From contig NZ_KB907546.1 in assembly GCF_000382125.1 (NCBI RefSeq), forward strand, positions 124,001 through 188,000: 64,000 nucleotides of DNA, in the 5' to 3' direction. Each line of letters starts with the position of its first letter. Positions within the stretch are counted from its first letter, which is position 1. Shown here piece by piece: positions 44,444 through 50,435 of the stretch. Under the pieces are notes generated by a model, which saw nothing but the letters and a program-made list of their open reading frames with translations, was not told where the DNA came from and did no database searches. Origin of the DNA: Eudoraea adriatica DSM 19308 (GTDB lineage: Bacteria > Bacteroidota > Bacteroidia > Flavobacteriales > Flavobacteriaceae). Made by a program: the position numbers and the translations under genes.

Positions 44444-47032
44444 CTAAAATGAAACGCGAAAACTCAAATTGGGAGTGAACCCCAAAGAAACATTTTCAAT
44501 AGTCACTATTTCATCCCGATCGTTTAACTTATAGTAGGTATTCAATATGTTTTCTTTATTGAATATATTTAAAATGGAAACACCGGCAGTAGCCTTTACA
44601 CCATTGGAAATATTAAAGTTATAAATTGCCGAGGCATCAGCCCTGACGTAATCTGGCAGACGACTGCTATTGGGTTCTTTGTAAATTATCGAAACAGGAA
44701 AAGTTGTGAAATCTACCGAATCGAGCCCGTCAATTGGTTCGGTAAAGGGTTTCCCGGTCCTGTAATTGATGCCAACACCAAGCTTTAGATTTTTATAAGT
44801 GTATGTTCCGGCAAAGGTTATGGTATGGCGAATATCCAGATTGTTGGGAAATACATTCGGAACTATATCTTCGAAAGTGTAATTATTCAGATTATAAGCA
44901 TAGCTAAACCAGGTACTGAAATAGGAATTTTTATAATTTATTAAAAACTCCAGTCCTTTTACATCATATTTACCAATTTCACCATTAAACTGATTTTGAT
45001 TCTGAAAGCCTTGCGTTACTGTGCTGATACCATCTACTTCTTTATAATACCCTTCAAGACCAACAAACCACCTTCCCTTATCATAATTGAGTCCCAGAGA
45101 GCCCTGTTTGCTTTTTACAACGGGTAAATTTGGATTACCGGGAATAGTATCGTTTTTATTGTTAGATAACATCCATCGTCTTTTTTCAATCCCCAGAAAA
45201 TTTTGTTCCAAATCAATTATTTGATTTGTAGTCTGGTTTTTAAACTCCCCCTTCACTTCTAATTGCAGATTTGGATAGAGCGAATAACTGAGGTTTAAAC
45301 GCGGCTCAACAATAAATTCATCGAAATATTGCACATTCACGATATAATTTAATCGACCCCCGCCCCTTGCCACTAATTTCTTGTTGGGGGAGGCATAGGA
45401 AATTTCACTATAGATGGAATTTGTTCGTATGACCCCCTTAATATTGCTCTCAAATGGTGGTTGTGTTACATCTGTAAAATTGGAAATACCCACTTCGGAA
45501 AATTGATACCCGTTTAGCCAGTTTAAATTTGTATTGAGCTGGTAATTGGTATTTAATTTAACCGAAGTTTCTATTACTTCATTTCTTTGATCGAGGATTT
45601 GTTGTCCATTGTTTATTCTGTTTTCGGAATCAAGATTGTAATTGGAATAATAAGCATTAAGCTTTGTTGAGAACCTGTCCGTCCATATGCTTTCCAGAGT
45701 ACCGCCAAAAGAAAGATTGGTTTGGTTTAAGTTGCTCTGATCTGTTCTGGCCAAATTTACTGCAGTTTCTGTGTAATCCAGGTTGTTGTTGATATTGATA
45801 AAACTAAATCGCGCCTTATGCTGCTCATTGATATCATATAGGACTTTAGCCGTGAAATCATAGAAATAGAATGTTTCATCCTGATTGATATTGGTATCGC
45901 TGCTTTGACCCGAAACATCTTCCACGTCTGTATCCTGAAAAGCTCTTTTAACAAACTGATTATAGGTAGGTGTGTTTACCAGGTCTGTTATGGAACGTCT
46001 GGCTGAGAATTGAAACGCTAATTTTTCTGAAATAGGGACTTGTCCATGCACATCAGCACTTATCATATTAAATCCGGCTCCTCCGAAAAAGTTACCTTCA
46101 ATTTTATTTTTTGATTGCATGCTTATGATTCCGCTCACGCCATCCCCGTACTCTGCGCTGGTCCCATCTTTTATAATGGTAACATGCTCCGTTAAATAGG
46201 GGTTAAAGGCAGAAATTAACCCGAAAAAGTGACCAGATTGATACATTTTAATATCATCCCAAAGAATAAGGTTCTGATCGTTTGTGCCTCCTCTTATATT
46301 GATATCTGATACAGTCTCATCAATGCTTTTTATGCCGGGAAGGGCTTGCACAGTTTGCAGAACATCCGGTTCTAAAAGTCCGGGAAGTATTCCAAAATCT
46401 TCAGTATTAACCGTTATACTGCCATCTGTTTGTTTGGTGAGTCCGGTGGTCAGAAATTTAAATACTACAACTTCGTCCAGCTGTTGATAGTTTAAGTTGA
46501 ATAATAGCTTGGAACAGGGGTTTTTACTTACCAGATCCTCTGCGGTTACATATTTTGGTTTAAAACCAAGATGCTTTATTCGTATAGAGGCTTTTCTCGG
46601 GATATTGTCGAGGGTAAACCTGCCGTTTGCATCTGTAACCGTAGAAATACTGCTGCCCAGGACTTCTACCGATGCACCCGGTGCGGAATTCTCACTATAA
46701 TTATCCAGAACATAGGCGCAAATATCTACGGTTGTACTTTTGGATAGTGTATAGTAGCGATTACTAAGCTTCTTGATGATTAATTGGGTCTGATTCCGAA
46801 TATTATCTAAAATAGCTTCAAGAGAACCAGCTTCGGGAGTATCTACCAGTAAAGGTTGAAGATCCTCGTCAACGTAAGAAAATTTAACGTCAAAATCTTT
46901 CTCCAATTGCCGGATATAGGAAACCAGACTAATATTTTTTGGAAATGATTTTACCTGTGCCCTTGAAGAAAAAAGGGCAAGCAAAAGTATCAGGTAAAAA
47001 AGCAGTATACTATTTCGGCGCGTTTTCGGCAT
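44444..47032 (-). CDS. TonB-dependent receptor with N-terminal STN signalling domain
   Basis: The 862-residue protein has a signal peptide (SILLFYLILLLALFSSRAQ), an STN domain (about 33-100: LVSYIRQLEKDFDVKFSYVDE), a carboxypeptidase-regulatory-like domain (about 105-180), a plug (LLEPDVLQTVQALPGIKSID, INIRGGTNDQNLILWDDIKM) and a barrel ending NLSFRVSF. The STN domain normally signals to a FecR anti-sigma factor in the periplasm. It is the last gene of the sigma/FecR/receptor set and overlaps fecR by 23 bases, which suggests coupled translation. No SusD partner follows, so the substrate is open (iron complex, cobalamin or another ligand). Confidence 0.92.
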   Translation of the reverse strand: MPKTRRNSILLFYLILLLALFSSRAQVKSFPKNISLVSYIRQLEKDFDVKFSYVDEDLQPLLVDTPEAGSLEAILDNIRNQTQLIIKKLSNRYYTLSKSTTVDICAYVLDNYSENSAPGASVEVLGSSISTVTDANGRFTLDNIPRKASIRIKHLGFKPKYVTAEDLVSKNPCSKLLFNLNYQQLDEVVVFKFLTTGLTKQTDGSITVNTEDFGILPGLLEPDVLQTVQALPGIKSIDETVSDINIRGGTNDQNLILWDDIKMYQSGHFFGLISAFNPYLTEHVTIIKDGTSAEYGDGVSGIISMQSKNKIEGNFFGGAGFNMISADVHGQVPISEKLAFQFSARRSITDLVNTPTYNQFVKRAFQDTDVEDVSGQSSDTNINQDETFYFYDFTAKVLYDINEQHKARFSFININNNLDYTETAVNLARTDQSNLNQTNLSFGGTLESIWTDRFSTKLNAYYSNYNLDSENRINNGQQILDQRNEVIETSVKLNTNYQLNTNLNWLNGYQFSEVGISNFTDVTQPPFESNIKGVIRTNSIYSEISYASPNKKLVARGGGRLNYIVNVQYFDEFIVEPRLNLSYSLYPNLQLEVKGEFKNQTTNQIIDLEQNFLGIEKRRWMLSNNKNDTIPGNPNLPVVKSKQGSLGLNYDKGRWFVGLEGYYKEVDGISTVTQGFQNQNQFNGEIGKYDVKGLEFLINYKNSYFSTWFSYAYNLNNYTFEDIVPNVFPNNLDIRHTITFAGTYTYKNLKLGVGINYRTGKPFTEPIDGLDSVDFTTFPVSIIYKEPNSSRLPDYVRADASAIYNFNISNGVKATAGVSILNIFNKENILNTYYKLNDRDEIVTIENVSLGFTPNLSFRVSF

Positions 47033-47924
47033 AGAATAGCACGTTGTTCCCTTCTAATTCATACTTTATCTGAGAAGGAGTACTAATACTCTGTAACGCC
47101 AAATTTAAGTTTGTGTTGCTAAAAGAGCCCGTAAATAATTGCCCGAGATTAACATTTTGAGTTTTAACCTCAATATTATATTGTCTTTCAAACTCATTCA
47201 GGACATACTTCAAAGGAATACTTTTAAAAGTACTTTCATTACTCATCCATGAAGGAATACCGTTTTCAGGAGATTCTGTTTTTAAGACTTCCCCGTTAAT
47301 GGCCATAAAGGAATTACCGGCAGGAAGTTTTGTTTCTTTACCCTTAAAAGTAACACTTACAAGGCCTTCATAACAGCTAACCTCAAAAAATCCTTTTCTG
47401 TTTTCAACATTAAACTGCGTACCCAATACGGTAACTAAACCGTCTTTTGTGGCGACTGTAAATTTTTGTCCTTTGGCAACCTTAAAAAAAGCTTCTCCCT
47501 GCAGAGATATGTTTCTTTCTTTATCCCAATTTTTTTCACTGTAGGTTATCCTGGAATCCGCATTTAAGATAATCTCAGAATTATCCGGGAGCCTTACTTC
47601 ACTGCGCTCCGCATATTTAGTAGATACAGATTCATCTAAAGTTGATATGTAAAAGTAGGATGCAACAAAAATAACGGCTACGGCAGCCGCAATGCGCCAT
47701 ATCTTCCGCATTGGATTCATCTTAATTACTTTTACATCTTTTTGAAGCTGATTATTTTTGAAATCATTCAAGGCCTTATCCACATCAAAATCCGGCGCTT
47801 TTAAAGAGCCGCTGACATCGATTAACTTCTCATAAGAGGCATACTCGGCAGATTTTTTAAATGCCGCGAGTTCTTCTCCGGAGAGGTCATTATTCAGCCA
47901 TTTTGCCAGGTAATTTTCTTGCAT
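47010..47924 (-). CDS. FecR family anti-sigma factor
   Basis: The 304-residue protein has an N-terminal cytoplasmic region (about 1-73), one transmembrane helix (WRIAAAVAVIFVASYFYIST, about 76-95), a periplasmic FecR domain (about 105-205: EVRLPDNSEIILNADSRITY, GEAFFKVAKGQKFTVAT, VLGTQFNV) and a C-terminal DUF4974-like domain (about 230-304) with YVLNEFERQYNIEV. It holds the sigma factor inactive until the receptor signals. A promoter-like element shared with the divergent lipoprotein gene lies directly before its start, inside the 103-base gap after the sigma gene. Confidence 0.93.
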   Translation of the reverse strand: MQENYLAKWLNNDLSGEELAAFKKSAEYASYEKLIDVSGSLKAPDFDVDKALNDFKNNQLQKDVKVIKMNPMRKIWRIAAAVAVIFVASYFYISTLDESVSTKYAERSEVRLPDNSEIILNADSRITYSEKNWDKERNISLQGEAFFKVAKGQKFTVATKDGLVTVLGTQFNVENRKGFFEVSCYEGLVSVTFKGKETKLPAGNSFMAINGEVLKTESPENGIPSWMSNESTFKSIPLKYVLNEFERQYNIEVKTQNVNLGQLFTGSFSNTNLNLALQSISTPSQIKYELEGNNVLFYAENAPK

Positions 47925-47936
47925 GATTTCTAGCTT

Positions 47937-47976
47937 TATAACATTAAAACAACTAATAATAAAAAAACCCTACCCT
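47937..47976 (-). promoter_or_regulatory. Putative ECF-sigma promoter of fecR (AGGGTAGGGT-N14-TTGTTTTA-N2-GTTATA)
   Basis: On the minus strand AGGGTAGGGT (47976-47967), 14 bases, TTGTTTTA (47952-47945), two bases and GTTATA (47942-47937) precede fecR by 12 bases. The same three blocks with identical spacing occur before the divergent lipoprotein gene (48585-48624). The AGGGTAGGGT-to-TTGTTTTA spacing fits an ECF -35/-10 arrangement. It does not resemble the TAnnTTTG housekeeping promoter. Confidence 0.72.
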
Positions 47977-48027
47977 CACGATCAAAAATTTTTAAAAACA
48001 TCCGGAACCTATCCCCGGACATGGCGG

Positions 48028-48525
48028 CTAGATTCCTTCTATTTGTTCCCTCAGGGCTTTTAACGCAAGATGCATGCGCTTTTCTATCGCTTTTACACTT
48101 ACACCTTCCATCTCTGCAATTTCTGCATATTTCTTGCCATCAATTCTATTTAACAAAAAAGTGGTTCTTTGATTTTCAGGAAGACTATTTAAAGCCTTAT
48201 CCAGTTTTTCCTTATACTCTTTTTCTTCCAACAAGAATTCTGGTGATTCGTTAGAAGTGTCATTAGACTTGTTTGCATACTTTAAGCGGACCTTTTCTGC
48301 CTTGATTACATTTAAATAAAGGTTATTTGCAACAGTATAGACATACGACTTCGCTTTTTCGGGACTGACTTTTGCGCAATTCTCCCAGAGTTTAATAAAA
48401 GCTTCCTGAACGACGTCATAGGCTTTCTCTTCGTTTCCGAATTTGTAATATATATAGTTAAAAACCGTTTTGGAATTAGTTTTGAAGAGGCTGCTGAACA
48501 CTTCCTCCTCACATACATTGTCCAT
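48028..48525 (-). CDS. ECF-type RNA polymerase sigma factor (FecI-like)
   Basis: The 165-residue protein has sigma region 2 (about 8-80: VFNYIYYKFGNEEKAYDVVQEAFIKLWEN) and region 4 (about 110-160: LNSLPENQRTTFLLNRIDGKKYAEIAEMEGVSVKAIEKRMHLALKAL), with no region 3, as in all ECF factors. By position it is controlled by the FecR protein encoded next to it and answers to the STN-containing receptor. A TATCTTTG -7 element lies 32 bases upstream, so basal expression is probably from the housekeeping sigma factor. Confidence 0.94.
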   Translation of the reverse strand: MDNVCEEEVFSSLFKTNSKTVFNYIYYKFGNEEKAYDVVQEAFIKLWENCAKVSPEKAKSYVYTVANNLYLNVIKAEKVRLKYANKSNDTSNESPEFLLEEKEYKEKLDKALNSLPENQRTTFLLNRIDGKKYAEIAEMEGVSVKAIEKRMHLALKALREQIEGI

Positions 48526-48556
48526 AATTATAGAGTTCTTGTCGTTGGTTCTGTTT

Positions 48557-48564
48557 CAAAGATA
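48557..48564 (-). promoter_or_regulatory. -7 housekeeping promoter element of the ECF sigma gene (TATCTTTG)
   Basis: On the minus strand TATCTTTG matches TAnnTTTG perfectly, 31 bases before the sigma gene start. The upstream region is A/T-only apart from the AGGGTAGGGT block of the divergent promoter. It suggests that the sigma gene is transcribed by the main sigma factor rather than by itself. Confidence 0.55.
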
Positions 48565-48584
48565 TTTTAAAAAAAATTAAAAAA

Positions 48585-48624
48585 AGGGTAGGGTATTTTA
48601 AAAAGTAATTGTTTTAGAGTTATA
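48585..48624 (+). promoter_or_regulatory. Putative ECF-sigma promoter of the divergent lipoprotein gene
   Basis: AGGGTAGGGT (48585-48594), 14 bases, TTGTTTTA (48609-48616), two bases and GTTATA (48619-48624) stand 26 bases before the ATG at 48651. Blocks and spacing are the same as before fecR on the other strand. AGGGTAGGGT was noticed nowhere else in the window. Confidence 0.72.
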
Positions 48625-48650
48625 CGAACAACAAATAAATCCAAATCGTT

Positions 48651-50435
48651 ATGAAAAAGTTTTTTAAATATTCACTGCAAACCCTGCTTCTTGTTGCAGC
48701 ATTTTCTTTTAATGCCTGTCAGGAGGCCTTTGAAGAATTACCACAACCGGATGAACAGCAAACTATAAATGCAAGTTCCTCTACAGCCAAGCTTATTGAA
48801 AACACTGCTTCCAAAGATGGTTCTTTTGACAATATCGTTGATGGTGCCAGTTGCTTTGCGATAGAATTTCCATATACTGTCAAAGCAAATGGCGTTGAAA
48901 TTACCATTGAATCTAAAGAAGGACTTCATTTAATTGAAGAAATTTTCGATGAATTGCAAGATGATGAGGATTTCCTTGAAATTATTTTTCCGATTGTTAT
49001 TACACTTGCCGATTTTACCGTAATTGAAATTGCCGGAATTGATGACCTGCGCGAATTGGCTCAGCAATGTGTTGAGGGTGGCGAGGATGATGATATAGAA
49101 TGTATAGATTTTGTATACCCTATTACGATATACACTTTCGATATCAATGAGGTTGAAACAGGTTCGGTAACGGTAGAATCTGATAAAGATCTTAGAATAT
49201 TTTTTGACGGTCTGGACGATAATGACTTAATCGGAATTGACTTCCCCGTAGCAATGGAATTGTATGACGGGACAAAAATTGAAGTGAGGAACAATGCTGA
49301 ATTGGCAAATGCCATTGAAATGGCTAAATATGCTTGTGACGAGGATGACGATGATGATTACAATGATGATGATTTTACCCAGGAACGTTTAGAAAGTCTG
49401 TTGGTTGAATGCCCATGGTTGATTCACGAAGTTATCAGAGATGAAATAAATCAGTCAGATCAGTACTTTGAATATGTGATGAACTTTTCGGAAGATGGAG
49501 GTGTAACCGTTAAAGATAGAATGGGTAACAACCTAATGGGTGCCTGGAGCACCAGGATTACGGATCATGGGGTACTTATTAATCTTGAATTTGATGTATT
49601 GGTTGATTTTAATCTTGAATGGTTTGTATACGAAATTGGAGAAGGCAAGATTAAACTTTATGCAGAAGGTGGAAACAGGATTATTATGCATAGCGTATGT
49701 GATCTTTTTAACACCGATCCCAATACTCTAAGAGAAATCCTGAAAGAATGCAGCTGGGTTATAAAAAAGGTTAAAAACCAGGGTGTAGAAATAGACAGAC
49801 TGCTGGGTTATGAATTTAACTTTCTGCCGGAAGGAGTTATAACATTGGGTAACGGTGAAAATACTTCTGAAGGAACATGGGAAATTACCATGAACGAACA
49901 AGGCAGACTTGTAATGTCTATTACTATGGGATCTGAGCCGGGAGTTAACTTTGAATGGCCATTATCTGATCTGAGAAATGACAGATTGAAGTTTAAAGTT
50001 GAAGAGATCGGTTACGAGCTGGTACTGCAGAGAGTGTGTGATGATAATGCAAATGATGGCGATGTTGCTGAAATCAGAACCATTATGATGGAAGGTGATT
50101 GGATAGTTAGTCTTTATGAAGACGGCGTAACGAATGAAACTGAAAATTATATAGGATACAACTTCAATTTCATGGCTAACAATTTAATAAATACCACACT
50201 TTCAGAAACGGGTGTTTCTTATCCGGGTCTGTGGAGAGTGCTTAGAAATAGCGATAGTAAGCTTAAAGTATACCTGAACTTCGGAGAAGTAGATATTCTT
50301 GACGAGCTTACGGAAGACTGGGAATTGGATTCAATTACCAATGATAAAATAATACTTAAGGATATTAGTGATGACGCCGGTACTGTGGAAAAGGTGAGTA
50401 CACTTATTTTTGTAAGGCCACAGACAACTCCTTAA
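48651..50435 (+). CDS. Repeat-built lipoprotein divergent from the ECF sigma gene
   Basis: The 594-residue protein has a lipobox FNAC (cysteine 23). It then holds two related A repeats (about 66-140 and 149-229; each begins with a Cys before a hydrophobic strand such as FAIEFPYTV or IDFVYPITI and ends in a Cys), an acidic linker (230-242, mainly Asp) and three B repeats (about 246-350, 358-463, 473-588; each begins LL/IL-x-EC-x-W-like, with WLIHEV, WVIKKV and WIVSLY, and contains GAW/GTW/GLW in the middle). B repeats look lipocalin-like, which is only an impression. It shares a promoter element with fecR, so it probably belongs to the regulon of the adjacent sigma factor. Function unknown. 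Confidence 0.85.
   Translation: MKKFFKYSLQTLLLVAAFSFNACQEAFEELPQPDEQQTINASSSTAKLIENTASKDGSFDNIVDGASCFAIEFPYTVKANGVEITIESKEGLHLIEEIFDELQDDEDFLEIIFPIVITLADFTVIEIAGIDDLRELAQQCVEGGEDDDIECIDFVYPITIYTFDINEVETGSVTVESDKDLRIFFDGLDDNDLIGIDFPVAMELYDGTKIEVRNNAELANAIEMAKYACDEDDDDDYNDDDFTQERLESLLVECPWLIHEVIRDEINQSDQYFEYVMNFSEDGGVTVKDRMGNNLMGAWSTRITDHGVLINLEFDVLVDFNLEWFVYEIGEGKIKLYAEGGNRIIMHSVCDLFNTDPNTLREILKECSWVIKKVKNQGVEIDRLLGYEFNFLPEGVITLGNGENTSEGTWEITMNEQGRLVMSITMGSEPGVNFEWPLSDLRNDRLKFKVEEIGYELVLQRVCDDNANDGDVAEIRTIMMEGDWIVSLYEDGVTNETENYIGYNFNFMANNLINTTLSETGVSYPGLWRVLRNSDSKLKVYLNFGEVDILDELTEDWELDSITNDKIILKDISDDAGTVEKVSTLIFVRPQTTP

Follow-up and report, generated by a model that had tools for sequence, protein, structure and literature searches.

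The gene of an ECF sigma factor in Eudoraea adriatica DSM 19308 is flanked on both sides by one promoter core, GTAGGGT followed by 14 bases and TTGTT, and this core is very probably the promoter used by the sigma factor encoded between its two copies. The reading is supported by the conservation of the core, its co-occurrence with the sigma factor, the spacing of its blocks, the promoters found at small-RNA loci and further sites whose downstream genes are the same in other genera. Our wider proposal is plausible but tentative: a surface-signalling system of the Flavobacteriaceae core genome would serve envelope homeostasis and not nutrient uptake, with a conserved small RNA whose 5′ end would stem from the lipoprotein gene of the system itself and tiny membrane proteins placed on the same signal. 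A promoter consensus can be read across dozens of genera together with its likely sigma factor and a regulon that is small and clean, each step being testable. The regulon would connect TonB-receptor signalling with tiny membrane proteins and a small RNA; the latter represents a candidate family, for which a searchable model is provided. To our knowledge, ECF factors are numerous in Bacteroidota and the promoter is known for few of them; likewise, we know of few small RNAs in this bacterial group. No report of a GTAGGGT promoter or of this small RNA was found in a literature search of partial coverage, and novelty is therefore provisional.

The window, the whole stretch of 64,000 nucleotides analysed here, carries four genes of the system. 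The sigma factor (165 aa; 48028–48525, minus strand) is recognized by Pfam Sigma70_r2 (2.2e-11) and Sigma70_r4_2 (2.4e-17), and its best NCBIfam model is TIGR02985, slightly below the family cut-off. Downstream lies the gene of a FecR-type anti-sigma/sigma regulator (304 aa; 47010–47924, minus; FecR 7.1e-21, FecR_C 3.9e-11), whose 3′ end is overlapped by the gene of a TonB-dependent outer-membrane receptor (862 aa; 44444–47032, minus) with Plug, TonB barrel and CarbopepD_reg_2 domains in Pfam. An N-terminal STN-like transducer region is not called in the receptor of the window; one ortholog has a FecR_C/STN-like match at residues 31–95 (2.9e-5), and the matches in the others are weak. Divergently transcribed is a lipoprotein gene (594 aa; 48651–50435, plus) with orthologs at the same place in named relatives.

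A sequence-only reading of this DNA had described the promoter as a long element, AGGGTAGGGT-N14-TTGTTTTA-N2-GTTATA. Two exact 40-mers of this form are indeed found at 47937–47976 (minus) and 48585–48624 (plus), with identical blocks and spacing, 12 bases before the start codon of fecR and 26 bases before that of the lipoprotein gene, as that reading had it. None is expected in shuffles of the 64-kb window, and neither the window nor the 3,904,654-base genome contains a third copy when up to three mismatches are allowed. The extent given to the element was too long. Across 29 other same-family genomes and 80 named relatives, what is kept is GTAGGGT, the 14-base spacer and TTGTT(nTA); the spacer opens with a T-rich sequence in relatives and is otherwise variable. 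The 5′ AGG and the 3′ GTTATA are not conserved, and as judged from this comparison they are accidents of the E. adriatica genome. The cores proper lie at 47948–47973 (minus) before the fecR-receptor operon and at 48588–48613 (plus) before the lipoprotein gene, with predicted RNA starts near 47940 and 48621, respectively. The spacing of the blocks is compatible with the −35 and −10 elements of an ECF promoter, in agreement with the two-block shape noted earlier.

Both cores are conserved in relatives. The lipoprotein core is present in 80/80 (77 exact, 3 with one mismatch), with GTAGGGT invariant throughout, and the fecR core in all 77 relatives with a placeable fecR (72 exact, 5 with one mismatch), a count that leaves out three loci having no fecR within 500 bases downstream. 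The gap from TTGTT to the fecR ATG is 22–24 nt in 76 of the 77 and 112 nt in the remaining one. In shuffled sequence, a match with at most one mismatch is obtained in 4 of 1420 trials. Relatives with both copies represent about 30 genera, for the most part of marine bacteria, among them Eudoraea, Saonia, Flagellimonas/Muricauda, Maribacter, Arenibacter, Zobellia and Robiginitalea, and their flanks have diverged. This bears on the idea that the two copies are merely a recent duplication, or a start-region context shared without regulatory meaning. Both copies are long in E. adriatica and their fixed blocks are identical, as such an origin would have it; their spacers differ, however, and the element is conserved at both places across these genera. 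The idea is refuted and retains virtually no probability, and the motif is a kept one, as first proposed. The shared promoter of fecR-receptor and lipoprotein likewise holds across the 30 or so genera and follows the presence of the sigma ortholog.

The sigma gene itself would be transcribed differently. Its upstream region carries TATCTTTG (48557–48564, minus), correctly located by the sequence-only reading, as the −7 box (TAnnTTTG) of a putative housekeeping promoter, which stands back to back with that of the lipoprotein gene. The TAnnTTTG box is found in 78/80 relatives, whereas an ECF motif directed at the sigma gene is present in none of the 79 scored, which upholds the proposed housekeeping type. 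In all 78 relatives having the box, it is separated from the GTAGGGT of the lipoprotein promoter by 20–24 bp. This geometry suggests that polymerases at the two promoters exclude each other, and since the promoters overlap back to back, active sigma factor probably lowers its own transcription.

The motif is linked to this particular sigma factor by its distribution. Orthologs of at least 74% identity are encoded in 47 of 299 family genomes, with that of E. adriatica counted. All 46 other ortholog genomes contain the core motif, in 264 sites (5.7 per genome), against 51 sites (1.1 per genome) for a reversed-pattern control in the same genomes. By comparison, 20 same-family genomes without a sigma match at E ≤ 1e-30, which may contain very diverged orthologs, have 5 core sites altogether, or 0.25 per genome. 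The ortholog genomes probably form one clade, so the co-occurrence reflects shared descent in part and Fisher values overstate its independence. In a second group, with sigma factors of about 57% identity, the motif is found on one or both sides of the sigma gene, fecR and the receptor gene adjoin it, a lipoprotein homologue is present in 6/7, and argS or ffh stands beside most; because motif and neighbourhood are kept, these sigma factors are probably diverged orthologs. In one genome with a sigma factor of 62% identity (G218) the motif occurs 23 times, roughly fourfold the usual figure; tiny frames and lipoprotein genes follow some of these sites, and the regulon would be an expanded one.

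The core could instead be bound by a transcription factor encoded elsewhere, or serve a different ECF factor as its promoter, with the flanking sigma gene merely a neighbour. Binding by the sigma factor is a prediction, and E. adriatica encodes other ECF factors (seen as second match in the sigma ortholog search), which could use the same promoter. We give this alternative little credence. It is opposed by the fixed 14-base spacing of the blocks and the fixed distances to the fecR start and the RNA 5′ end, by the near absence of the motif from genomes without the sigma factor, and by its persistence beside the sigma gene in the 57%-identical orthologs. In addition, no ECF gene is found beside the unlinked core sites of E. 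adriatica whose surroundings were read.

The regulon appears from these sites to exceed the fecR-receptor operon and the lipoprotein gene. The latter had been proposed as the fourth member of the system, and its inclusion stands; membership is larger, with a small RNA, two tiny membrane proteins and a second lipoprotein as further candidates. In the whole genome, the long pattern matches only its two sites, while the core GTAGGGT-N14-TTGTT matches five sites exactly and one nearly so. All six fall between genes, and for five of them a site ahead of the corresponding gene is found in other genera as well; the scan yields no scatter of core sites at unrelated genes or inside genes. Besides the two at the locus, exact sites are found at C3:386927 (plus), before a 61-aa membrane protein gene; at C4:207638 (minus), before the apparently untranslated RNA; and at C11:10424 (minus), before the gene of a 257-aa lipoprotein adjoining mnmE. 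The one-mismatch site at C1:414324 (minus) precedes a 27-aa hydrophobic frame between DinB-like and cyclophilin genes. Five other one-mismatch sites were read (eight more exist besides); three lie inside genes and none is promoter-like. Three of the four unlinked sites, those of the RNA and the two tiny membrane proteins, recur in other genera, in a comparison that left out the C11 lipoprotein.

In other genera the motif precedes the same 55-aa protein at five loci, a tiny membrane frame adjoining the cyclophilin gene at eight and the RNA at fifteen; the 40 fetched sites were mostly picked for AT-rich spacers, and the promoter-like share among them is not unbiased. The two conserved tiny membrane proteins preceded by the motif are about 27–49 aa and 55–61 aa long. 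The 55-aa protein is found in 38 of the 47 ortholog genomes versus 2 of 252 others. Two genomes (G270 and G096) encode it though a close sigma ortholog is absent. In some genera (loci L088 and L113), the motif is seen before a gene whose product, a large secreted protein, looks by eye like a PQQ-type sugar dehydrogenase.

The RNA, about 100–165 nt long, constitutes a candidate small-RNA family (loci L129–L158) in which the terminator covaries and a GU-rich block is kept. The E. adriatica member lies at C4:207511–207630 (minus) and adjoins a pyridoxamine-oxidase-like gene. A covariance model built from the transcript only, with the promoter sequence left out, matches 40 of the 47 sigma-ortholog genomes and 0 of the 252 others at E ≤ 1e-5 (Fisher 7e-43, relatedness of the genomes ignored). 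Although the model does not contain the promoter, GTAGGGT-N15-TGTT is found upstream of 30/30 fetched RNA loci, 25 with the exact core and 5 with GTGTT, at −32 to −35 in 29 of them and at −92 in the other, where an insertion is present. The layout begins with a conserved 5′ end, AAATTGCTATGAAAAAG; a middle part that varies, a kept block with the consensus TTCATGTGTTTAGGTTGGTTTT and the terminator follow. In the terminator stem, 94.4% of cells are paired and both-side changes are observed in 61 cells versus a shuffle mean of 18. No consistent fold is predicted other than the terminator, and four loci containing the RNA gave no above-threshold match in Rfam. A conserved peptide was considered and rejected, since the short frame that follows ATGAAAAAG is not of constant length and an ATG is missing there in several relatives.

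The RNA 5′ end (CAAATTGCTATGAAAAAG at L129) agrees at 16 of 18 positions with the consensus of the lipoprotein start region, CAAATCGTTATGAAAAAG (window 48642–48659), while among the other genes of the window the highest agreement is 14 of 18 consensus positions. It is possible from this likeness that the RNA 5′ end derives from, or mimics, the start of the lipoprotein gene. The same likeness would be expected if the conserved RNA were a decayed copy of the lipoprotein gene that kept promoter and terminator and regulates nothing, and a search for conserved targets gave none. Complements of the conserved block with at most two mismatches number 20 in the E. adriatica genome against 34 for the reversed control, and 4 of 19 non-self hits lie at most 40 nt upstream of a start codon, as do 4 of 30 control hits. 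The best candidate, a 15-mer with one mismatch located 23 nt upstream of the gene of a membrane protein, was rejected as it is not kept in relatives. A decayed copy is nevertheless improbable, because decay would not preserve the block TTCATGTGTTTAGGTTGGTTTT, which is strongly kept across genera past the variable middle, or a covarying terminator.

In the mechanism we propose, the sigma gene would have basal transcription from its housekeeping TAnnTTTG promoter, and its product would be held or activated by the FecR-type protein until a signal through the TonB-dependent receptor frees or activates it. The active sigma factor would then transcribe the fecR-receptor operon as feedback, the divergent lipoprotein gene and, elsewhere in the genome, the small RNA, the two tiny membrane proteins and the second lipoprotein. 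In the ferric citrate system of Escherichia coli, transcription of fecIR depends on sigma-70, while the fecA promoter is served by FecI (PMC9249621). The present system shares with FecI/FecR/FecA the ECF sigma factor, the FecR regulator and a TonB-dependent receptor, which here may have a transducer region at its N terminus. As read here from sequence, it also shares the placement of the sigma gene under a housekeeping promoter and of the receptor under an ECF promoter. Unlike in E. coli, fecR belongs to the ECF-driven operon and is not transcribed with the sigma gene, the promoter sequence differs, the regulon includes unlinked genes and an RNA, and iron genes are not seen beside the locus. 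The system would thus work like FecI/FecR/FecA signalling, as a variant with an envelope-type regulon.

Nearer relatives offer partial parallels. In Bacteroides thetaiotaomicron, of the same phylum, ECF-linked promoters carry TGTT near −10 (PMC12596196), and SigW-1 and SigH-1 are described with a non-canonical −30/−10 motif (PMC12596196, PMC7366714). The likeness to our core, in a comparison of the −10 half, is TGTT at about −10, and SigW-1 and SigH-1 differ from the present system in controlling sulfatase or stress genes. Within the same family, the SM6 motif of Flavobacterium psychrophilum contains a CGT box and controls the expression of an ECF/anti-sigma pair, of secretion genes and of the putative RNA Rfp11 (PMC9723704). 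SM6 is thus similar as an ECF-driven regulon with a putative regulatory RNA and its own sigma/anti-sigma genes, and through Rfp11 an ECF-driven RNA has a precedent in the family. Unlike here, where TTGTT or GTGTT is found in the aligned sites, SM6 has the CGT box at −10; it also controls type IX secretion genes, and its promoter drives the sigma gene itself. The envelope-stress regulon of E. coli sigma-E includes the small RNAs MicA and RybB. The present system would resemble it as an envelope-responsive ECF factor driving small RNAs and envelope proteins. The type of anti-sigma factor and the promoter are different, a TonB receptor is absent in sigma-E, and the RNAs were compared via Rfam only.

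The role in the envelope is suggested by the putative targets, which are lipoproteins, tiny membrane proteins and an RNA, and by a locus in which no nutrient genes are present. The architecture of a FecI/FecR/TonB-receptor system, together with a co-regulated lipoprotein gene adjoining the receptor operon, would also fit ordinary nutrient-uptake signalling (PUL or iron), in which the lipoprotein would bind substrate as a partner to the receptor, with the unlinked sites as minor additions. We consider this unlikely, though it is the strongest of the alternatives. Neither SusD, a SusC/SusD pair nor carbohydrate enzyme genes are found at the locus in the window or in relatives, where the housekeeping genes argS and ffh/folD flank it instead, and the unlinked sites before the RNA and the tiny membrane proteins are conserved across genera. 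Moreover, the lipoprotein is predicted, in a model of moderate confidence, to be lipocalin-like and not SusD-like.

The lipoprotein has no family in Pfam or NCBIfam. Its AlphaFold2 model, based on 40 orthologs, has a mean pLDDT of 77 and a pTM of 0.42, which allows individual domains to be used but not the way they are arranged. The model is read as two N-terminal alpha/beta repeats followed by three lipocalin-like repeats, and the best credible Foldseek matches, which cover part of the protein only, are the lipocalin-like structures 4nw4, 4kh8, 4qrl and 5byp. After the lipid cysteine is the acidic stretch QEAFEE, as expected of surface-exposed lipoproteins in Bacteroidota. In one relative (L114, G231:C47:93900-97900), the lipoprotein gene is tandemly duplicated, and the second copy has its own promoter motif.
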